From Bacteroidota bacterium (GTDB lineage Bacteria; Bacteroidota; Ignavibacteria; UBA10030): 38,900 nucleotides of DNA. The position numbers and the translations under genes are program-made. Shown here piece by piece: positions 23,333 through 36,564 of the stretch. The stretch lies in assembly GCA_021813905.1 (NCBI GenBank), contig JAKAJH010000031.1, positions 1 to 38,900 on the forward strand, in the 5' to 3' direction. A model generated the notes under the pieces. The model was not told the DNA's origin and did no database searches. It saw nothing but the letters and a program-made list of their open reading frames with translations. How positions within the stretch are numbered: the stretch's first letter is position 1; every line of letters begins with the position of its first letter.

Positions 23333-24652
23333 CTATACCTTTTGTCGTCGTGTGCGAAGATCGTCGAACGCCTGCACCGCAAGCAGAACGACCATCGGAA
23401 TCACCGGATAGAAGTACCGCGGCTCGGCGTTCGTCGGAATGTGCACTGCAACATAGTAAAATATGATCAGTCCCGGAATCCATACCCATCGGTCCGATCG
23501 TCGACGGAGAAGCACCATCACCGCCACGATCAGGGAGCCGTATTGCAGAAGAATCAGGAGTCCGCGAATGCCGGCGGCGAACGGATGCTCCCGCAGGAAG
23601 GAGACCACGGTTCCGCCCGGCGTTTCATCCAGATAGTCCTTCAGTGAGAGCGCATAGCGCCGCGTCAGGATCCAGTCCGGGGTCAGCAGCACGGGAACGC
23701 GTCGGGCCATCAGCGTGGCATACCAGCCCGGATGCTCACGAATGATCCGCAGCGCCTCACGAAACCGAGTCCGGTCGCGCTCGATCCCGTTCGGATATGC
23801 CCACGAGCGGTATCCTTCCCGCTCGGTCATCCGCACGTCGCCGTAGACCGTGCCGAGCGTGTCGCCGAACTGGCTGATGCCCTCCCACATGCTGATTCCA
23901 TTGCCAAGTCCCAGCAGAAGGACCGCACCATCCGTCACACGGTAGTTCCGCCCTGTCTGTATGCCGACGACAACGGCCGCCCCGACGACAAACGATGCGG
24001 TTGCGTTGAGCAGAGCGCGTCGATCCCACGACTGCAGCGCAAGTCCGGCAAGAAGGAAAAGCGGGAGAAACAGAATGTCCGGCCGCATCATCAGTCCTGC
24101 GCCGAACGCGAGCCCGGACGCCAGTGCCCACCGGGCCGGTCGTTGCGGATCCAGCGCCTTCAGCGCGAGCCACACCGTCAGGAGCAAGAAGAAAGACATG
24201 ACCGCATCGGGGAGAAGCGTGATTTCGAACCGCGCACTCAGGGGCCACGCGGCATACACGAGACCCGCGCGGAATGCGGTTGCCTCTGATGCAAGCCGCG
24301 AGCCGATGCGATACAGAAGCACTGCCGACAGCGCACCAAGGATCGCGTGGAGGATTTGCACCAGAACCGGCGATGCGCTGAGGACGGAGGGAATGAGCAT
24401 CAGCAGCACATAGCCAAGCGGACGGTCGATGAACGGCACGTATGCCCACTGCGGAGTGCCGACGGCGATCGGCGCCAGATCGACATAAACGCTGAATCCC
24501 TTTCCATTCAGCACGTTGTGGACGACATCGAGGTAGCTGACGGAGATCCCGGAGTAGTAGTCCGGTCCGGGAAAGACCGCCACCATGATCAGCCGCAGCG
24601 CAAGCGCCACGCCGGCGACCATCAGCACGCGCCTATCGGCCGTCCGATTCAC
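23333..24652 (-). CDS. Family 39-like membrane glycosyltransferase
   Basis: This 439-residue GT-C type membrane enzyme has about ten hydrophobic helices. Its first helix (residues 10-27) is followed by an acidic periplasmic loop (GPDYYSG). The RPLGYVLLMLIPS, FRAGLVYAAWPLSARFEITLLPDAVMSFFLLL and MMRPDILFLPLFLL segments are typical of ArnT/PMT-like glycosyltransferases, which move a sugar from a polyprenyl phosphate onto an acceptor at the outer face of the inner membrane. The GTG at 24652 is chosen because GGAG lies eight bases before it. It overlaps the end of the heparinase-like gene by 20 bases. It is paired with the GT2 gene, which could make its donor. Confidence 0.8.
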   Translation of the reverse strand: MNRTADRRVLMVAGVALALRLIMVAVFPGPDYYSGISVSYLDVVHNVLNGKGFSVYVDLAPIAVGTPQWAYVPFIDRPLGYVLLMLIPSVLSASPVLVQILHAILGALSAVLLYRIGSRLASEATAFRAGLVYAAWPLSARFEITLLPDAVMSFFLLLTVWLALKALDPQRPARWALASGLAFGAGLMMRPDILFLPLFLLAGLALQSWDRRALLNATASFVVGAAVVVGIQTGRNYRVTDGAVLLLGLGNGISMWEGISQFGDTLGTVYGDVRMTEREGYRSWAYPNGIERDRTRFREALRIIREHPGWYATLMARRVPVLLTPDWILTRRYALSLKDYLDETPGGTVVSFLREHPFAAGIRGLLILLQYGSLIVAVMVLLRRRSDRWVWIPGLIIFYYVAVHIPTNAEPRYFYPVIPMVVLLAVQAFDDLRTRRQKV

Positions 24653-26630
24653 GCCGGATCTCCGTGGAAATGGTGACAGGAAGGTCGTTTTCGAGCGACA
24701 TACAGATCGCAACGTTGGAAACGAGCACACCGTAGGAACGGGAGAATTCCGAATCACAGATCTGCATGCTCCCGGCGTCGGTCGTGATCCGGTACGTCCA
24801 CGTCTCCCGCCGGATCACTGCGGAGCGCGGTCCCTCCAGCGTCACGGTGATGCCGGGCGCCAGGTGGAAGAAAGATGCGATCCGATGCCGCCCGGAGCCG
24901 AGGATGCGATCGGTGATCTGCACGGAAACAGCCTCGTGAGCGAACTCGAATCTCCGACGATGCACGATCGTCTCATCCCCCCGCGAGTACCCGCGATGCT
25001 CGGCTTCGAGCACGTCCCGACCGGTGGACGGCGACCACTCCAGCACGCGGGGTTGCGTGGTATCGGCGGCAATGGTCCAGAGTCCGGAGAACTCCGCCGG
25101 CTCACGGTCATCGATCATGACGGTGTTATGCGCGCGCACGCTGCGGAGCCGTTGCCGCGCCTCGACATCGGCGGTGTACGTGTACGTTCCCGAATCGACG
25201 ATCAGCGCTCCGCCGTCCGCCCACAGCTCGAAGCTCAGCGTGTCATTATGCCCGTGACCGCCGCGACCCCGCTGTCCGATCTCCCCCGCATCGACGAAAA
25301 GATGCGCCTCCGCCGTCCGCATGATGTAGCACCCGCCCTGCGGGAACGCCTGCGAACCCGGGACAGATCCGCTCAACAGCATGCGGAAACGTTCGAATCC
25401 TTCCCCGCCGAAGTACCACAGCGCATCCTGGTGAAATCCGCCGGCGGAAGCGGCGAGATCCGTGCGGTCGAACGCGATGGCGCCGAGGCACAGCAGGTGC
25501 CGGTGATCGTTGATGCGCTCATCCAGGCGCAGTCGGAACAACCGGCCGTCATCCGCATCACCGATGAGAGGAATGGATCCGTCGGGACGCGTGTAGGCCT
25601 GCACGTAGTCGAGCATCCGCTCCAGCCGCTCCATGAAGGCGGGCGAGAGCGTACGCTTGTTCACCTTCAGCAGCAGTGTCGCGCTGAGGAAGAGCTCGAG
25701 CACGAGTCGCTGATAGGCCGTGGATTTCTCAAAGTCGACGCCGTCCGGATCCACCTGGGACTGCATCTCCTCCTCCAGGCGCTCGATGCCCCACTGCAGC
25801 CACTTCGCGCCGAAGGGCGTGTCCTGGAAGAATACGCCGAGGAAAATGAGTCCGACGATGTCGGAGAGAAAATGATTGCCGTTGAAGCGCGCATATTCGA
25901 GGTGGTACCAGATGTACTCACCGTGCGCGGCGAGGGATTTCAGCATCCGCGTCCAAAATGCCGGCGTGAGCGACGGTGATTCGCAGAAGAAGTAGTAGCC
26001 GGCGATCCAGTTGGCGGCGCGGATGGCTACTTCCATAGAGACGACCCAGTTGACGCCCCTGCCGACCGGATTCCTGTCGATCCAGTCTTCGACCAGCGCG
26101 CCGAATTTCTGCGCGTAGCGTTCGTTGCCCGTGAGCCAGTAGGCTTTGCCCAGCCACCAGATCTGGTGGAAGCGGCTCAGTTCCCACGGCACTTTCACGT
26201 CCGAGGGCTTGCCGAGGCCGAGGATCTCGAGATCGCGAACCGGCGTCACGGGCCAGTCGGTGCCGGTCTTGAAGTCGCGGTGCCACGGGACGGGATCGCC
26301 GAGTGCGACCAGCGCGGAGCCGAGCGTCTGGAACCTGTTCTGCAGAACGGCGTCTGCATCGGCGAGAATGGACTCTTCCGGCTGGGTCCAGGTGAGCGTA
26401 TTGAGGAAGAAGTCCTTGCGGTTGCGAGGATGGAAGAAGAAGCGGTAGCGGGCATTCCGGTGGAACGCGGCGATGACCTCGGATGCGTCGCCCGACCAGC
26501 CGCAGGCGCGGAAGAAGGAGGCGTCACTTCGTGCGGCGATCTTCGACCCTCCGACGCGGTTCCACCACGCCGGCCGCACAATGCGGTGGAGGATCACCCT
26601 CGACAGGTGTGCGGGATCCGGGATCTTCAT
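24633..26630 (-). CDS. Heparinase II/III family protein
   Basis: This 665-residue protein has two parts. The N-terminal alpha-toroid (about 60-370) contains RAANWIAGYYFF, YARFNGNHFLSD and FEKSTAYQRLVLELF. The C-terminal beta-sheet domain (about 420-640) contains RGGHGHNDTLSFELWADGG and VDSGTYTYTADVEARQRLRSVRAHNTV. These are the heparinase II/III signatures; N, H, Y and H residues in them correspond to the lyase active site. Unlike secreted degraders, it has no clear signal peptide. Related proteins without one are often found inside capsule and exopolysaccharide clusters, where they may modify or trim the polymer. It overlaps the downstream GT39 gene by 20 bases and the upstream GT4 gene by four (ATGA). 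Confidence 0.9.
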   Translation of the reverse strand: MKIPDPAHLSRVILHRIVRPAWWNRVGGSKIAARSDASFFRACGWSGDASEVIAAFHRNARYRFFFHPRNRKDFFLNTLTWTQPEESILADADAVLQNRFQTLGSALVALGDPVPWHRDFKTGTDWPVTPVRDLEILGLGKPSDVKVPWELSRFHQIWWLGKAYWLTGNERYAQKFGALVEDWIDRNPVGRGVNWVVSMEVAIRAANWIAGYYFFCESPSLTPAFWTRMLKSLAAHGEYIWYHLEYARFNGNHFLSDIVGLIFLGVFFQDTPFGAKWLQWGIERLEEEMQSQVDPDGVDFEKSTAYQRLVLELFLSATLLLKVNKRTLSPAFMERLERMLDYVQAYTRPDGSIPLIGDADDGRLFRLRLDERINDHRHLLCLGAIAFDRTDLAASAGGFHQDALWYFGGEGFERFRMLLSGSVPGSQAFPQGGCYIMRTAEAHLFVDAGEIGQRGRGGHGHNDTLSFELWADGGALIVDSGTYTYTADVEARQRLRSVRAHNTVMIDDREPAEFSGLWTIAADTTQPRVLEWSPSTGRDVLEAEHRGYSRGDETIVHRRRFEFAHEAVSVQITDRILGSGRHRIASFFHLAPGITVTLEGPRSAVIRRETWTYRITTDAGSMQICDSEFSRSYGVLVSNVAICMSLENDLPVTISTEIRRESDGR

Positions 26631-27802
26631 GTCCGTTTCAGCTGTTTGACCGCCTCCACCACACGGGACGCATTCATCCGCCAGGAGAAGGTTTCCACTG
26701 CATCGCGACGCGCCGCTGCGCCGAGACGCTCCCGGAGCGCCGGATCGTTCGCCAGACGAGCGATCTTTTCCGCAAGATCCACGTGGTCGCGCTGTTTCAT
26801 CAGCAGGGCGTTGACGCCATCATGAAGGATATCGCCGATCTGCCCGACACCACTGGCAACGATCGCCTTTCCCATGCCGAGATATTCGAACAGCTTGGTC
26901 GGCGAGCCGAAGAAGACGGTGCCGTCGGAATTCTGCACGTGCGGAGAAAGCAGGAGATCGCATGCCCCGAGATATTCCGGGACTGCGTCATGCGGGATTG
27001 AGCCCGTGAGCGTCACGTGCGCCTCCACTCCGTCGGCGGCAATGATCCGTTCGATCTCACCCCGCAACGTCCCCTCGCCGATGATCAGAAAGTGGATGTT
27101 CGGGACCCGATCCACCGTCGGTCGGACGGCGCGGGCCAGCACATCGACGCCATGCCATGCGCCGAACGTTCCGATGAATCCGGCGACCACTTTCCCGTCG
27201 AGGTGAAGCTTCGTACGGACCGACGAGCTGTCGATATTGGGCCGAAAGCGTTCCGGATCGACGCCGTTCGGGTTCACCAGGATCTTGTTCCCGTCGACGC
27301 CCAGCCGCACGAGTTGATCCTTCACTCCGTCCGAGACGACCGCGACGAGATCGGCCGCTGCGAACTGGACATCCTCGGCCATCTGCAGGATGCGTTCGAG
27401 GTACACCTTCCCCCAGTTCTTTTTCACCCACACTTCGGATCCGTTGCACTCGAGCACCAGCGGAACGTCGAGTCGTCGCGCGAGAACGGAGCTCGCGTAG
27501 TTGAACTCACTGTGCCGGTGGTAGAGGAAGTCGGGCTTCAGGTCCCGGAGCAGCGGAAGGGCGCGACGGATCAGGCGGCGATTGTAGGCGATGGAAAGGA
27601 CCTCGGGGAGATTGCGATAGAGCGTGGAGTACGGAATCACCTGCAACCGGCGTCGGTCGCGGAGCGGCAGATCGCCGCTGGAGATGACAAGGTACTCGTG
27701 ACCGAGCTGTTCAAGTCCGTCGAGAAATCCGCGGGTATGGGTAAAGGAGCCCCCGACGCTGATGTGCCCGTAGAAATCGGTGCGAAGGAACGCGACGTTC
27801 AT
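26627..27802 (-). CDS. Family 4 glycosyltransferase
   Basis: This 391-residue GT-B enzyme has an N-terminal acceptor domain that begins MNVAFLRTDFYGHISVGGSFTHTRGF, with the glycine-rich loop near the start. The C-terminal donor domain has VAGFIGTFGAWHGVDVL (about 209-225), LIIGEGTLRGEIE, and the E-x7-E type segment SPTKLFEYLGMGKAIVAS (about 306-323). It transfers a sugar from a nucleotide sugar to a lipid-linked intermediate at the cytosolic face. It overlaps the genes on both sides by four bases (ATGA), showing tight translational coupling. The sugar and linkage are unknown. Confidence 0.9.
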   Translation of the reverse strand: MNVAFLRTDFYGHISVGGSFTHTRGFLDGLEQLGHEYLVISSGDLPLRDRRRLQVIPYSTLYRNLPEVLSIAYNRRLIRRALPLLRDLKPDFLYHRHSEFNYASSVLARRLDVPLVLECNGSEVWVKKNWGKVYLERILQMAEDVQFAAADLVAVVSDGVKDQLVRLGVDGNKILVNPNGVDPERFRPNIDSSSVRTKLHLDGKVVAGFIGTFGAWHGVDVLARAVRPTVDRVPNIHFLIIGEGTLRGEIERIIAADGVEAHVTLTGSIPHDAVPEYLGACDLLLSPHVQNSDGTVFFGSPTKLFEYLGMGKAIVASGVGQIGDILHDGVNALLMKQRDHVDLAEKIARLANDPALRERLGAAARRDAVETFSWRMNASRVVEAVKQLKRT

Positions 27803-28233
27803 GTCCTATCGGGGCGTGACCCGGCGAACAATCGAACACGGAGGGTAAGATACGCCGTGAGGAGAATGACGCCGCTCGCGGCAAGTTCAAGCAGGAACGA
27901 GGGAAAATCTCTCACGAAATACCGGAGCAATGAGAACTCGACGCACGACCCGGTTTCATCGAGAATGTGCTTTCGTCGTCCGGTAGCAAACAGGAGATAG
28001 GTATTCAACACAAACTGGTAGCGCTGCAGTTCGAGCTGCTTGCAGCCGAATCCCGCGGCCCGCTGGCCGGGCACCCGCAGTTCCCGGATGATCGTGCGGG
28101 CCCGGACAACTGCTTTCTCATCCATCAGTACAATTCTGACGGCCGATCCTCCGAGCTGTCCGGCCCATGTCGCTCGCAGCGTCTCCGCATGGCCCGACAG
28201 CACGATCAGTGTCGCCGGCGTCTCCGGTGTCAT
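27799..28233 (-). CDS. Unrecognised protein in polysaccharide cluster, one C-terminal membrane segment
   Basis: This 144-residue protein is not recognised. The N-terminal third (TLIVLSGHAETLRATW, then VRIVLMDEKAV) looks like a small alpha/beta fold. The middle is basic and has four Gln/Tyr-rich turns (CKQLELQRYQFVLNTYLLFATGRR, divided here only for position: about 64-87). One hydrophobic segment lies at about 112-130, followed by a basic tail. ATGA overlaps on both sides (with the methyltransferase upstream and the GT4 gene downstream) show it is a genuine, translationally coupled gene. It may be a membrane-tethered accessory subunit of the polysaccharide pathway; that is inference from context only. 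Confidence 0.6.
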   Translation of the reverse strand: MTPETPATLIVLSGHAETLRATWAGQLGGSAVRIVLMDEKAVVRARTIIRELRVPGQRAAGFGCKQLELQRYQFVLNTYLLFATGRRKHILDETGSCVEFSLLRYFVRDFPSFLLELAASGVILLTAYLTLRVRLFAGSRPDRT

Positions 28234-29057
28234 TTGCGGCCCCGCAACACGAGGTACCATCCGACGCGCCGGGAAAGCTTCGAAAGCAGGGATGCGGGAA
28301 AGACGCCGCTCAACGGAAAGTCACCGCGGTTCAGATGCCAGACCTCAGTCTGAACCGACCGGAAATTCCGCATCAGTCGTATGCCCTCGCGCCGCGAATA
28401 CACTTTCGTCAGAGGATTCTCTTCGCCGTCTGTGCTTGCGGAGAGAACCCGGCGGAGCGAGAATCGAAACGGATTCTTCCCGCGCAGGATATGCCCAGCG
28501 AATCGCTTCGTCCCGCTCTTGAGCAGGATGCCGCCGTAGTAGGCAAGCGAATGCCGGTGGTACAGGATGATGAGCGCGGTACTCCCCGGTTTCAGGACGC
28601 GGCACGTCTCATCCACGGCCTTTTGCGTGTCCGGAGTGTGGTGCAGCACACCGTTCGAGAACACAAAGTCAAAGGTGTTGTCCGGGAACGGAAGTTGCTC
28701 CGCGTCGCCGGCGACAAACCGGCCCTGGTGACCGAACAACTCAAACCGACGTCGCGCAAGTTCGAGATGTCGTGGCGTCAGATCGAGTCCGGTGACATCC
28801 GCCCCATTTCGCGCGAACTCCAGCAGGTCCGTCCCCATCCCGCATCCGACCTCGAGGATCTTCTGCCCGCGATGCTGGTCGAATCCGGCGACGGCACGGA
28901 GCCAGGGCGCATAGACTTCGTATCGGAAGCGGGCGTGTTCCTCGAAGTACTCTTTGGTAAACCGGACTTCCGAGGAACTGAATCCGGTCGTCTGCGTACC
29001 GATGGGCACGGTGGACCAGTGTTCGATCGTCCGTCGTTTGATATCGTCGGAGGACAT
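28230..29057 (-). CDS. Class I SAM-dependent methyltransferase
   Basis: This 275-residue protein contains KILEVGCGMGTDLLEFAR (about 66-83), VTGLDLTPRHLELARRRF, GDAEQLPFPDNTFDFVFSNGVLHHTPD and RVLKPGSTALIILYHRHS. The order is that of small-molecule methyltransferases of the UbiE/Methyltransf_11 type. It opens with a HWSTVPIGTQTTGF segment also found in related form in the frameshifted methyltransferase at 31230-32034 (YWNAHPCGTQFTGLEW), so the two are paralogues. It starts 6 bases after the preceding methyltransferase gene and ends in an ATGA overlap. The acceptor is probably a sugar intermediate. Confidence 0.85.
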   Translation of the reverse strand: MSSDDIKRRTIEHWSTVPIGTQTTGFSSSEVRFTKEYFEEHARFRYEVYAPWLRAVAGFDQHRGQKILEVGCGMGTDLLEFARNGADVTGLDLTPRHLELARRRFELFGHQGRFVAGDAEQLPFPDNTFDFVFSNGVLHHTPDTQKAVDETCRVLKPGSTALIILYHRHSLAYYGGILLKSGTKRFAGHILRGKNPFRFSLRRVLSASTDGEENPLTKVYSRREGIRLMRNFRSVQTEVWHLNRGDFPLSGVFPASLLSKLSRRVGWYLVLRGRK

Positions 29058-29913: not shown

Positions 29914-31191
29914 TCACGAGCGGAGCGCGCGCCAGTCAAAATCATCACGACGTGGAACAAACAGAAGAGCGGGAGAAACACGAACGCGCCGCATGAACCA
30001 ACCCAGCAGGATCAGCAGCATGACGAAGTGCGCGACGCTCGACGACACGGCGGACGCAAGAATGCCCCACGTATGCAGCAGCAGGAGATTCAAGGAGGCG
30101 TTGACGATCGCGCCAACGGCCGGCGCAATGATGACCACGGCCGGAAGACCCCGACCCGCGAGGTCGTTGTTCAGGATCATCACCAACGAAAGGAACACGA
30201 TGCCGGGCGTCAGCGCATACAGCGGTCCAACGGCACCCAGGAACTTCTCCCCGTACAGCAACACGATCAGCGGTTGTCCGACGAGCACGATGCCGACGGC
30301 GACGGTGACCATCAGGATGAACGTCGAGCGGAACGCCTTCACCGTCAACTGCACGCTTCCGGCTTCGTCCTCCGAGACCTTCGGAAAAAGCATCAGCCCC
30401 AACGTCGTCGGGATGAGATAGACAAGGTCCGAAATCTGAAGCGCCACCGAATACACACCGGAGTCGTGTTCCCCGAGCAGCAGATTGATGAGAAAGAGAT
30501 TGACACGGATCGCGAGAAACATGAACAGTCCGGCAATGTACGTCCGCAGCCCGTACCGGATCATCGCGCCGAACCGTGCACGATCGAAGGACACCGGGCG
30601 GTGGACATACCGCAACGAACGCAGGAGATAAAGCAGACCCGCCACAACCGTGACCGCGACGAGGGCAAGCACCGCCTCGTACGTGGACAAACCAAGATAG
30701 ACGAGAACGAACGCGTAGGCGAACAGTTGCAGCACTCGAACCGTCAGATCGAGCAGGTTGAACTCAACGATGGCCTGCCGGGCGATAAAGACGTTTTGTA
30801 GAAGTTGATGCAGGAAACTGAATGGAATGGCGATCAGAAAGACGAAGAGATACCGGGAGTCGACCTGACCGAGGAGGATCCCGGGATTGATCCATGCGAC
30901 CAACCCGAGCCCGACCGCGATCACCATCCCGGCGGCAAGGCCGGCCGCGGCAGCCGTCATCACGATCGCCGATGTGGCCGTGCGCTCACGGGAAATGAAA
31001 TACGTGATCGACGCATTGAAGCCGAGGGCTCCGAATTGCAGTGCAAATCCCTGGATCACGACCAACAGCGCCAGGACCCCGCGGCCCGATGGCCCGAGGT
31101 ACCGGGCGGTGATGACACTCGAAATGATGCCGATCGGAAGCGCGATGCCCTTCGTGATCAGCGTCAGGATGACCCCCTTACCGTATCGCAC
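29914..31191 (-). CDS. Polysaccharide flippase (Wzx/MOP superfamily)
   Basis: This 425-residue inner-membrane protein has about 12-14 hydrophobic helices. Its start, KGVILTLITKGIALPIGIISSVITARYLGPSGRG, is the classic beginning of O-antigen/teichoic-acid exporters of the MATE-like (MOP) superfamily. It would flip the lipid-linked repeat unit to the periplasmic face. The GTG at 31191 is chosen because AAAGGA lies about nine bases before it and the fold starts there. An earlier in-frame GTG would overlap the upstream methyltransferase gene and has no homologous sequence. No Wzy-type polymerase is obvious next to it. Confidence 0.9.
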   Translation of the reverse strand: MRYGKGVILTLITKGIALPIGIISSVITARYLGPSGRGVLALLVVIQGFALQFGALGFNASITYFISRERTATSAIVMTAAAAGLAAGMVIAVGLGLVAWINPGILLGQVDSRYLFVFLIAIPFSFLHQLLQNVFIARQAIVEFNLLDLTVRVLQLFAYAFVLVYLGLSTYEAVLALVAVTVVAGLLYLLRSLRYVHRPVSFDRARFGAMIRYGLRTYIAGLFMFLAIRVNLFLINLLLGEHDSGVYSVALQISDLVYLIPTTLGLMLFPKVSEDEAGSVQLTVKAFRSTFILMVTVAVGIVLVGQPLIVLLYGEKFLGAVGPLYALTPGIVFLSLVMILNNDLAGRGLPAVVIIAPAVGAIVNASLNLLLLHTWGILASAVSSSVAHFVMLLILLGWFMRRVRVSPALLFVPRRDDFDWRALRS

Positions 31192-31229
31192 GCACCGATT
31201 CCTTTTCGCGCATCCGCTTCGTGTCGCCC

Positions 31230-32030
31230 TTACTTGATCGCCTTGATCACCAGGTAAAATCCCCACCACCAGGCGAACAGCCGCTGATTCAGTCCGTTTA
31301 CCGACGGCGACAGACCGCGACGCACCGGATCGACGGTTGACAGCCGAAGATCTTTGAACGCCCGGAACATCGAGCGCACTTCCGCCCGCGTGTACGCCTT
31401 CCCGAGCGGATTGTCCGACCCGTCATAGGCACGCACCCAGTTCTCCACCGTTCCCGAGACCGTGCGGTACTTCGCGCTGATGTTCGCCACCGCCCGTCCG
31501 ATCGCCACATGCATCGAATGCCGGTGATACAGCATGATGATCGCACGGCCGCCCGGCTTCAGCACGCGGTACACTTCGCTGACCGCCTTCGGCGTGTTCG
31601 GCGTGTGATGCAGCACCCCGAAGGAATACACCACGTCAAAGCTGTTGTCGCTGAACGGCAACTTCTCGGCATCCCCGACCCGCGCGTCGACCGGAAGGCC
31701 GTACAGCCGGAACCGCTGTTGCACCAGCTCGATGCTTCGCGGCGTCAGATCCACCGCGCTCACCACGGCGCCGCCGCGCGCGAACTGCAGCAAGGTCCGT
31801 CCCCAACCCGCATCCGATCTCCAGCAGGCGCTTGCCGCGGAAGCGATCGAACTCCATTGCGGTCTGCATGAACGGCTGCACCTCGTACCGGTGCCGCTCC
31901 ACCGCTTCGAAGAACTCCTTCGATCCCCACTCCAGGCCCGTGAACTGGGTCCCGCACGGGTGCGCGTTCCAGTAGTCGCGCACTTCGTTCTTCAGCATAT
32001 CATTGTCGGCTTCCGCCGTCGTCGAAACGC

Positions 32031-32034
<4 letters not shown>
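31230..32034 (-). pseudogene. Class I SAM methyltransferase with single-base frameshift
   Basis: From GTG 32034 the frame gives NEVRDYWNAHPCGTQFTG and KRLLEIGCGLGTDL, then goes out of frame. In the next frame the protein resumes exactly as LQFARGGAVVSAVDLTPRSIE and continues through LPFSDNSFDVVYSFGVLHHTP to a normal C-terminus at 31230. One extra A in the plus-strand AA at 31792-31793 accounts for the shift. It lies inside motif I, so the interrupted gene cannot make an active enzyme unless the frame is bypassed. Everything else is well conserved, so a sequencing or assembly error, or a very recent mutation, is likely. The GTG overlaps the asparagine synthase stop (GTGA), with GGGAG seven bases upstream. 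It is a paralogue of the gene at 28230-29057. Confidence 0.85.
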
Positions 32035-34010
<1,976 letters not shown>

Positions 34011-34014
34011 AGGA

Positions 34015-36564
34015 TCAGGCCGCCGGAGCGGATGACGGTGATGACGGAGTGCGCTTGCGCCACCAGACGAGTCCGATCGCCAGCAGACCGCCCAGCGCAA
34101 GCACGTTCGTGACCAGGCTCAGCGTCCGTCCGAACGAGAAACTCCGCGGCTCGAACCGCATCTCCAGCGTATGCGTTCCCGCCGGCACGACGACACCGCG
34201 GAACATATAGTCCAGTCGGTAGATCGGCGTCTCCTTCCCGTCGATCGTCGCGATCCAGCCCTTCGGATAGTACGCTTCGCTCAGAAACAGCAGATTGTTG
34301 CCCGTGGCATTGACCCTTAGTACCACATGCTGGAGATCGTACGTCACGTACTCGGCACCTGCGCCGTCACCGGGGGCATCCAGCGTCAGATGCGGATCCT
34401 CCATCAGGTACGCAACTTCGGACGGATTGAATGACAGGGCCGCCATGTTGTCCAGGATCTGTTTGCCGCCGGCGACTTCGTAACGACTCACAAAGAAGGC
34501 CCGCGGACCGGTCGAACGGTTCAGATAGACATTCATATCGGGACCGCGGTACACCGCATCCATGATACGGCTCGAGTCAAGCTGGTTGCTGAGGATATAT
34601 TTCACGTTCATGAGCTGCCACACCAGCGGATTTCCCAGGCCGGCAACATCAACCACATCCTGATATTCCCGCAGCTTGGCGCCCTGGTAGCCGTACGCGC
34701 TCTGGATCCGCCAGTACGCAAGCGTGTTGTCATACGGCGGCTGCCCGTTGATAATCGTGAGCGTCCGGTACAGCGTTGTATCCTGCTGCAGGAATTTCAC
34801 GTACGCCGGTGTCGCAAAGAGCTGCTGCTGCTCCGTCCGATCCTTCGGGTCCATCGGGCGCACGTCCATGCGCCACAGATCCCACAGCACAGCGATGACC
34901 AGCGCGCCAGCCAAGACCGGCAGTTTGACGGATCCTTTCGCGTACAGATAGATCGCACCGATCGCCAGCAGCAATACCGCTCCCGCCATCGCAATGTCCG
35001 TTGCCACCGCAGAACCGATGAACGCGTACAGTTCATCGATCACCTGTGCCTGCCCCGTGCCGACCTTCCGCGCCAGCTGAACGCCAATCTCCTTGACGGG
35101 AAAGACGCTCCTGAACAGGCTCTGCACGATGCTGCCGCCGGCGATACCCAGCGCGAGCAGCACCGCGAGCACACCCAGTCCCATCTTCCATTTCTTTTCC
35201 ACCGCGGGCGCCATTCCCTGTGCGGTCTCGCGCATGAGTGAGGCAACGCCGTACGCCGCGAGCAGCGGAACAAAGATCTGCACCAGCACGAGGATCATCA
35301 CCGGAGCGCGGAACTTGTTGAACATCGGGAAATAGCGGAACATCAGGTCATACACGACCGGGAATTCTTTTCCGAAGGAGATCAACAGCGACACCGCGAT
35401 GATGACCGCCGACGCCTGGACGAACACGTCCTTGCGGTTCTTCCAGAATCCGATCGCCGCCAGAACCAGGATCACCACGCCCATGTACTGCGCGCCGTCC
35501 ACCCACGGCTGCGGACCGAAATACAGATTCAGTGCGACCGGCTGCGCGGTCAACGGACCGTGGTACGTAATCGGACCGAATCCGTACCAGGTCGGAACCA
35601 AGAACGTCATCATCTCACCGGGACCGAAGGACCAGCTGGTCGCGTAGTCGTAATCGAGTCCCCCCGCCTGCGTCTTCGCTCCGCTCTGGGCCGTCATCAC
35701 GACAGGCGCCGATCCGCGGATCGAGTACGGGTTGTACTCCCAGACCGAAAGATACTTGTCCGCATCCATGGCGAAGGCGATCACCGTCGCCGCTGCCAGG
35801 ACCAGGCCCGCACGCACCACCCCCTTCCAGTCTCCCTTCTTCACCAGCGCATGCACAAGCGTGTACAGCAGGAAGATGCCGAGCGCGAAGAACATGTAGA
35901 AGATCATCTGCACATGTCCCGGCAGCAGCGCGTAATGCAGAAGGATCGTCAACACCAGCGCCCACCAGACCTCGAACTTCTCGCGCAACTTCTCGACCAG
36001 CAGCAGGGCGAACGGAAGGAACGCGATCACCGCGATCTTCGTGTTGTGACCGATCATAATCCAGACGATGATATACGTCGAGAAGGTCGCACCCAGGCCC
36101 GCCACCAGCGCGGCGAGCTTGCTCGCGGTTTTTCGGAATGCCAGCGCGTACATGCCCACGCCGAACAGAAAATAGAAGAAGAGCACCCAGCCGACCGGAG
36201 AGTTCAGCATGATCAGCTGGTACAGCTGTGAGACCTTTCCCAGGACCACGGCCGAGAGGTCGAACAGACGCGGGCCGCCGAAGGTCAGGCTGGCATATCC
36301 CGGCATGCCGCAGAAGATGTACGGATTCCAGAGCGGAAACACGCCTTGGTCGGCCGCATCCTTCAACACCGTGTCCCAGCTGTGCGAGGCGATCGAGTCC
36401 GAGCTCAGGAAGGTCTTGCCGCCGAAAATGACCGGCGCAAAGAAGACCGCCAGGGCCACGAACAGGACGGCCACCGCTGCGAGATGCTGGTACTTCTGCG
36501 GAATGTATTCGCGCTCGTCGCGCGCGCGCTTCGGCGTCGGCCGATCGTGCTGTATCTTGCTCAT
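34015..36564 (-). CDS. YfhO family membrane protein
   Basis: This 849-residue inner-membrane protein has about 11-13 helices in its first 550 residues (for example AAVAVLFVALAVFFAPVIF near 29-47 and WVLFFYFLFGVGMYALAF near 126-143), and a final helix before the C-terminus. Between them, about 580-800, lies a soluble beta-rich domain. The FLSSDSIASHSW...FPLWNPYIFCGMPGYAS segment and the C-terminal SEAYYPKGWIATIDGKETPIYRLDYMFRGVVVPAGTHTLEMRF region are hallmarks of YfhO proteins. The family has a GT-C-like fold and is linked in some bacteria to glycosylation of lipoteichoic acid or other surface polymers. It ends four bases before asnB and overlaps the upstream GT gene by four (ATGA). Confidence 0.88.
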   Translation of the reverse strand: MSKIQHDRPTPKRARDEREYIPQKYQHLAAVAVLFVALAVFFAPVIFGGKTFLSSDSIASHSWDTVLKDAADQGVFPLWNPYIFCGMPGYASLTFGGPRLFDLSAVVLGKVSQLYQLIMLNSPVGWVLFFYFLFGVGMYALAFRKTASKLAALVAGLGATFSTYIIVWIMIGHNTKIAVIAFLPFALLLVEKLREKFEVWWALVLTILLHYALLPGHVQMIFYMFFALGIFLLYTLVHALVKKGDWKGVVRAGLVLAAATVIAFAMDADKYLSVWEYNPYSIRGSAPVVMTAQSGAKTQAGGLDYDYATSWSFGPGEMMTFLVPTWYGFGPITYHGPLTAQPVALNLYFGPQPWVDGAQYMGVVILVLAAIGFWKNRKDVFVQASAVIIAVSLLISFGKEFPVVYDLMFRYFPMFNKFRAPVMILVLVQIFVPLLAAYGVASLMRETAQGMAPAVEKKWKMGLGVLAVLLALGIAGGSIVQSLFRSVFPVKEIGVQLARKVGTGQAQVIDELYAFIGSAVATDIAMAGAVLLLAIGAIYLYAKGSVKLPVLAGALVIAVLWDLWRMDVRPMDPKDRTEQQQLFATPAYVKFLQQDTTLYRTLTIINGQPPYDNTLAYWRIQSAYGYQGAKLREYQDVVDVAGLGNPLVWQLMNVKYILSNQLDSSRIMDAVYRGPDMNVYLNRSTGPRAFFVSRYEVAGGKQILDNMAALSFNPSEVAYLMEDPHLTLDAPGDGAGAEYVTYDLQHVVLRVNATGNNLLFLSEAYYPKGWIATIDGKETPIYRLDYMFRGVVVPAGTHTLEMRFEPRSFSFGRTLSLVTNVLALGGLLAIGLVWWRKRTPSSPSSAPAA

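Follow-up and report, generated by a model that had tools for sequence, protein, structure and literature searches.

The small gene and its surroundings

The window, that is, the whole 38,900-nucleotide stretch of DNA analysed, contains a block of minus-strand genes that looks like a surface-polysaccharide cluster. Along the minus strand, the block encodes an asparagine-synthase-like amidotransferase (32031..34100), methyltransferase pieces (31230-32067), a Wzx-like flippase (29914-31269), two methyltransferases, a small protein, a GT4 glycosyltransferase (26627..27802), a heparinase II/III-like protein (24633..26630), a PMT_2 protein and a GT2. The upstream neighbour of the small gene is a SAM methyltransferase (28230..29057, Pfam Methyltransf_11/25), and the GT4 downstream is its proposed catalytic partner. 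The amidotransferase and the heparinase-like gene provide the operon context. The methyltransferase pieces represent one SAM methyltransferase split over two overlapping minus-strand frames, with 143 amino acids of the N-terminal part at 31636-32067 and 187 of the C-terminal part at 31230-31793. The split is due either to a frameshift in the gene itself or to a fault in the assembly.

The small gene (27799..28233, minus strand) is defined by its open reading frame and by 25 stand-alone family members, this one included. It runs from an ATG at 28233 to a TGA at 27801-27799 and encodes 144 residues. A longer protein of 153 residues, starting at 28260, is possible; the 144-residue form was preferred because the starts of the homologues fit it. 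The gene shares an ATGA with each neighbour: at 28230..28233 its start coincides with the end of the upstream methyltransferase gene, and at 27799..27802 its stop coincides with the start of the GT4 gene. Both overlaps had been pointed out in a sequence-only reading of this DNA, and the reading frame coordinates bear them out. The four-base overlap with the GT4 recurred in 11 of the 16 loci, window included, that have the GT4 directly downstream; the count was limited to such loci because the following gene has its start at another position in L045 and probably also in L049 and L056. We infer that the small gene is translationally coupled to the GT4.

The same reading had recognised no known family in the small protein, and this was confirmed. 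The window protein matched 0 families in Pfam and 0 in NCBIfam at E≤1. With 22 of the 25 stand-alone members, these two collections gave nothing consistent, and PHROGs returned two families only, each with 1 of the 22 members (best E 0.0016). Sequence searches of the PDB with the family gave unrelated proteins as their best matches (E 0.12 and 0.025), no match at E≤0.01 came from the plasmid or phage collections, and a literature search returned no publication recognised as dealing with the protein. Profile and structure searches alike thus gave no confident match to a known family.

Homologues were recovered from related genomes. A search of 60 relatives and the own genome revealed five clear homologues (E≤1.2e-15, 32-37% identity) and, in eight further genomes, weak matches only (E 0.04-0.6). 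A scan of the genome collection with the single small protein found no relative, and the same scan with a profile of six sequences, the window protein and these five homologues, recovered only the five already known. When this profile was run against 395 genomes of the phylum, 22 were positive (weakest E 1.3e-16), three of them already represented among the six sequences. The own order gave 7 positives in 98 genomes, including one fusion (G012), and contributed three stand-alone members outside the phylum sample (G008, G011, G023). A class-level search of 100 genomes yielded 7 positives, none of them new. The stand-alone family thus has 25 members including the window protein, with homologues in 24 other genomes, and 21 aligned homologues were 20-35% identical to it. 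These figures refer to one genome per species within one phylum, some of them incomplete; the phylum searches scored at most 10 candidates per genome for the small protein and at most 4 for the GT4, so misses are possible. A chance reading frame was rejected because the gene is conserved across genomes.

Predicted fold and conserved positions

The AlphaFold2 model of the small protein, built with six sequences, had a mean pLDDT of 86.4 and a pTM of 0.72. Residues 1-101 (27931..28233) form an α/β domain in the model, with core strands at residues 7-11, 32-36, 59-64 and 87-92, helices between them, and a short strand at 97-99. A long hydrophobic helix, predicted to be membrane-associated, occupies residues 102-138 (27820..27930). 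A Foldseek search of the PDB with the model gave no match at E≤0.001. VIA-align gave a best Z of 7.7, in a range that the tool calls common, first to Argonaute MID/PIWI and then to sugar-binding-protein and other α/β folds. GT-B structures were absent among the matches listed, which proves nothing.

Three residues were invariant in 25 of 25 stand-alone members. These were Arg71 (codon 28021..28023), Asp92 (27958..27960), the last residue of strand 4, and Glu116 (27886..27888), which lies inside the hydrophobic helix. Among the polar or glycine positions outside this helix, S13, G14, E39, K40, Q70, R71, D92, E93 and G95 were conserved in at least 80% of the 25 members. The model places these nine residues at the ends of strands 1-4 or after them. 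The strand ends are the usual functional edge of Rossmann-like α/β folds, and the location of Asp92 and Glu93 at this edge suggests a function beyond anchoring.

In the C-terminal helix, E116 and S120 were conserved. The conserved helix positions favoured one face, with 126 of 5000 shuffles scoring as high, and hydrophobicity showed no clear preference for one face (638 of 5000 shuffles as high). In the small protein, the 19 residues from 113 to 131, which include Glu116, had a mean hydropathy of 1.90, and the protein is predicted on this basis to be membrane-anchored. A 19-residue segment with a hydropathy of at least 1.6 was present from residue 61 onward in 24 of the 25 members, and the remaining member, L061, reached 1.50; in L056 it was located at residue 68 and thus not in the helix. 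A tail rich in Lys and Arg comes after the hydrophobic helix in most members. This tail and the invariant Glu are unlike a simple anchor that crosses the membrane once and has its N-terminal domain in the cytoplasm; we consider a monotopic or in-plane helix the more plausible arrangement.

Association with one GT4 glycosyltransferase

The GT4 is a complete GT-B enzyme. Pfam Glyco_transf_4 covered residues 16-185 and Glyco_trans_1_4 residues 206-353, and the best PDB sequence match, over residues 8-386 (E 2e-14), was PglA, an undecaprenyl-PP-sugar GalNAc transferase. The best of five models built with five sequences had a pLDDT of 76, the others 44-53, and the model matched whole GT-B structures, among them GlgM, MshA, PglA and PimB'. 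A strict Alg13/14-style arrangement, in which the small protein would supply a missing half of the GT4, was rejected, as the GT4 has both halves. The small protein would thus be an extra half rather than the missing half of a split GT-B.

Conservation of the neighbourhood was then evident from the loci themselves. The GT4 lies directly downstream of the small gene in 16 of 25 loci, window included, and after one intervening methyltransferase gene in 4 more, so that the small gene is conserved with the GT4 adjoining or one methyltransferase gene away in 20 of 25. The ATGA shared with the methyltransferase in the window might instead suggest an accessory protein of the methyltransferase and not of the GT4. 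In 11 of 25 loci the small gene has a methyltransferase-like reading frame beside it (window, L042-L046, L049, L053, L055, L056, L063), and the upstream methyltransferase is possibly a further member of the module. However, the other 14 loci have no such adjoining frame, and the GT4 adjoins in 11 of these 14. The fusions examined, which were found in a GT4-based search, were also all to the GT4. We regard an accessory of the methyltransferase as very improbable.

The two proteins also occurred together. With a GT4 cut-off of E≤1e-70, fixed before the search was run, the phylum sample of 395 contained the small protein in 22 genomes, the GT4 in 22 and both in 20 (Fisher p 2.5e-29, a guide only because the genomes are related). 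Counted by genus, the small protein was present in 17 of 170 and the GT4 in 18 of 170. In three genomes both were present without adjoining: on different contigs in G278, 386 kb apart in G101 and 8.4 kb apart in G447. The one clear orphan was G224 (L055), which keeps the small gene and a methyltransferase. When all its candidates were scored in a renewed search, this genome lacked a GT4 of this kind at E≤1e-30, and the DNA flanking the small gene contained no remnant of one. The same renewed search found the GT4 absent from G356, where the contig ends at the small-gene locus. The two genomes with the GT4 and no separate small gene, G009 and G359, carry it inside frames of 534 and 535 codons. 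The distance matrices of the small protein and the GT4 were correlated (r=0.58 over 23 pairs, 0 of 5000 permutations as high), a raw value in which shared species history may play a part and which includes a partial GT4 reading frame from L044. In that locus (G015), from about 8405 onward, the GT4 beside the small gene is read in two frames, and the pair may be decaying or the assembly may be wrong.

Long GT4 frames were found repeatedly. In the own order the GT4 was present in 12 of 98 genomes, six with a separate small gene (among them G015, with its GT4 in two frames) and six with an N-terminal extension. The phylum and own-order sets combined gave 30 genomes with the GT4, divided into 23 split, 7 fused and 0 with neither form. 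The fused frames span 534-574 codons with extensions of 135-182 residues. No separate small gene was found in the 7 fused genomes at E≤1, where the fused domain of G012 was itself the sole match.

A single group, A3, is made up of the extensions of L066 and L077-L080; as judged by profile comparison, these five of the 7 are homologous to the small family. With hhalign, A3 matched the small family at E 5.8e-8 and, in a second comparison, at E 2.5e-8, where the score was 53.9 and the best of 60 column-shuffled controls reached 17.0. Decoys (GT4, methyltransferase and reversed sequences) had probabilities of at most 1.1%. Dropping any one member left an E of 5.5e-6 or better, and with L078-L080 only the significance fell to 0.0004. 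HMMER, on a small sequence set, found L066 (i-Evalue 1.7e-8) and L077 (1.2e-6) with the small family. The alignment of A3 with the small family continues across the hydrophobic C-terminal region. L067 and L068 have extensions of similar size that showed no significant similarity to the small family (E 0.0013 and 0.0099). In sum, an extra protein or an N-terminal extension accompanied this GT4 subgroup in 30 of 30 sampled genomes, with homology demonstrated in 28. In the GT4 tree the split group (support 82/6) and both fused groups branch from a single fork, which is compatible with either fission or fusion having come first.

The fused domains differed from the stand-alone proteins at the invariant positions. 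An Arg aligned with Arg71 in all 5 A3 members, Asp92 was lost in all 5, Glu93 was Glu in 2 of 5, and the position of Glu116 was Gly in L066. Only Arg71 of the three invariant residues was thus clearly common to both forms. This comparison bears on the reading that the small protein is an independent enzyme, acting on the same pathway intermediate and merely co-inherited with the GT4, in which the conserved residues after the strands would form an active site. The invariant Arg71, Asp92 and Glu116 and the near-invariant Gly14, Gln70, Glu93 and Gly95, mostly at the functional edge, would suit such an enzyme, as would the location of the gene away from the GT4 in G278 and G101 and its persistence without the GT4 in G224. 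However, relatives fuse the domain to the GT4 and there dispense with Asp92 and mostly with Glu93, and no known enzyme family or fold matched significantly. An independent enzyme is therefore improbable in our judgement.

Some partner proteins of glycosyltransferases serve as chaperones or stability factors. If the small protein did so for the GT4, it would neither anchor the mature enzyme nor bind its substrate. The near-obligate partnership and the gene overlap are compatible with such a role, as is the fact that the GT4 is already a complete GT-B. The permanent fusion in 7 genomes (homologous in 5) points instead to a lasting 1:1 role, and a chaperone leaves the hydrophobic helix unexplained. 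We consider it an unlikely explanation, a shade below that of an independent enzyme.

The fused domains also provided a link to GT9 enzymes, for which a comparison set of 14 proteins from 13 genomes was used. A3 aligned with the N-terminal Rossmann half of GT9 over 78 columns at E 2.5e-6, scoring 47.7 where the best shuffled control reached 23.7. As a yardstick, the same test applied to GT4 and GT9 gave E 1.7e-4. With each fused member omitted in turn, E ranged from 8.6e-7 to 3.2e-5, and it was 0.0004 with L078-L080 alone. The small family compared directly with GT9 did not rise above noise (score 21.8, reached by 1 of 60 shuffles), and the small and fused sequences together gave E 0.0012. The link of the small family to GT9 is hence transitive, by way of the fused intermediates. 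A duplicated N-terminal half of the GT4 was rejected as a source of the domain, as hhalign comparisons of the small family and the fused domains with the GT4 profile were at noise; against the GT4 orthologues, the small family had a probability of 1.1%.

An asparagine-synthase-like amidotransferase is found repeatedly in the vicinity of the GT4 gene, in split as well as fused loci (window, L043, L044, L046, L066-L068, L077-L080), which suggests a conserved polysaccharide cluster. In the 7 fused loci this gene adjoins the GT4 or, in L080, lies one gene away from it, and the weakest case was L068 with 29% identity. In NCBIfam, the window amidotransferase fell short of the cut-off for the XrtA/PEP-CTERM type. 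In 11 loci (L048, L051, L052, L054, L057-L060, L062, L064, L065) the small gene and the GT4 stand as a pair, and the fetched stretches of these loci had no BLAST match to the asparagine-synthase, heparinase or flippase of the window. Standing alone in this way, the pair may be a movable module.

Proposed role and comparison with known systems

Linkage, co-occurrence in 20 of 22 genomes each way and natural fusions to the same GT4 all identify the downstream GT4 as the partner. That the small protein belongs with this one enzyme is well supported, and a functional partnership between the two is highly probable. The suggestion in the sequence-only reading of an accessory subunit in a glycosyltransferase complex is thereby supported, and the partner can now be named. 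A stable physical complex of the two proteins is likely.

We favour, with reasonable confidence, a non-catalytic accessory subunit, a GT9-like half-domain that would dock on the GT4 and keep it membrane-bound. The N-terminal two thirds, the α/β part, would derive from the N-terminal half of a GT9-like GT-B enzyme, and the long hydrophobic helix of the C-terminal third would be embedded in the inner membrane or lie on it. Translational coupling would produce the small protein alongside the GT4, on which it would then dock, keeping the enzyme at the cytoplasmic face of the membrane, near an acceptor that is presumably linked to polyprenyl diphosphate. Membrane anchoring is perhaps its main task, and we lean slightly towards this view. 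The protein may also contribute acceptor-binding residues, Arg71 first among them, although we put this forward only tentatively. A stronger form of the idea is a one-and-a-half glycosyltransferase, in which a GT9-like half has been recruited to a complete GT4 and binds the acceptor through Arg71 and the strand-edge residues, with its helix in the membrane. The GT4 alone would then be inactive or less specific for its acceptor. We consider this version rather doubtful.

GT4 enzymes have mostly been investigated as one-chain enzymes. Confirmation of the pairing would mean that assays with only the catalytic GT4 chain may fail or mislead, and it would assign a function to a protein family that lacks annotation. 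It would also make the split and fused forms convenient to compare when asking how a peripheral glycosyltransferase reaches its lipid-linked acceptor.

Among known systems, the Alg13-Alg14 and EpsE-EpsF pairs are the first to compare. In these, the partner of Alg14 or EpsE supplies the C-terminal half of the enzyme. The gene order given in an excerpt of PMC8993221 agrees with this. The same excerpt describes Alg14 and EpsE as the membrane-associated part of a GT-B encoded apart from its partner, reports split and fused natural forms and a lipid-linked acceptor for both pairs, and presents a membrane-association helix at the N-terminus of Alg14 as a proposal. As far as that excerpt describes them, the small protein resembles Alg14 and EpsE in being encoded separately from its partner, with split and fused forms in nature, and, on the accessory-subunit reading, in its membrane association, in corresponding to one part of a GT-B and in serving a lipid-linked acceptor. 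Unlike theirs, its partner is a complete GT-B, and its hydrophobic helix is C-terminal (102-138), whereas the Alg14 helix of the excerpt is N-terminal; the model of the small protein begins with the strand at residues 7-11. The Alg14 profile PF08660 matched 0 of 22 small-family members at E≤1, and a search for the PF08660 family in 118 genomes of the phylum was positive in one of them (E≤1e-8).

With GT9 (PF01075), the likeness lies in the alignment of the fused form to the N-terminal Rossmann half. Unlike GT9 enzymes, the small protein has 144 residues and lacks a C-terminal half, in place of which it has the hydrophobic helix. PF01075 gave no match at E≤1 in the 22 stand-alone and 5 fused sequences.

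A further comparison is offered by the GPI-GlcNAc transferase, in which PIG-H, PIG-P, PIG-Y and DPM2 are subunits around the GT4 enzyme PIG-A, according to an excerpt of PMC12182360. In the model presented there, PIG-P and PIG-Y set the orientation of PIG-A, and PIG-P, PIG-Y and DPM2 have V-shaped membrane domains of two helices. Pfam DPM2 gave one weak match in 1 of the 22 small-family members (E 0.0089) and none in the other 21 at E≤1, and beyond this match the family showed no sequence relation to PIG-H, PIG-P, PIG-Y or DPM2. The small protein would nonetheless work in the same style as these small subunits, as far as the excerpt portrays them. Taken together, the small proteins form a new family that works in a known style, that of Alg14/EpsE and PIG-P, as a member of neither.
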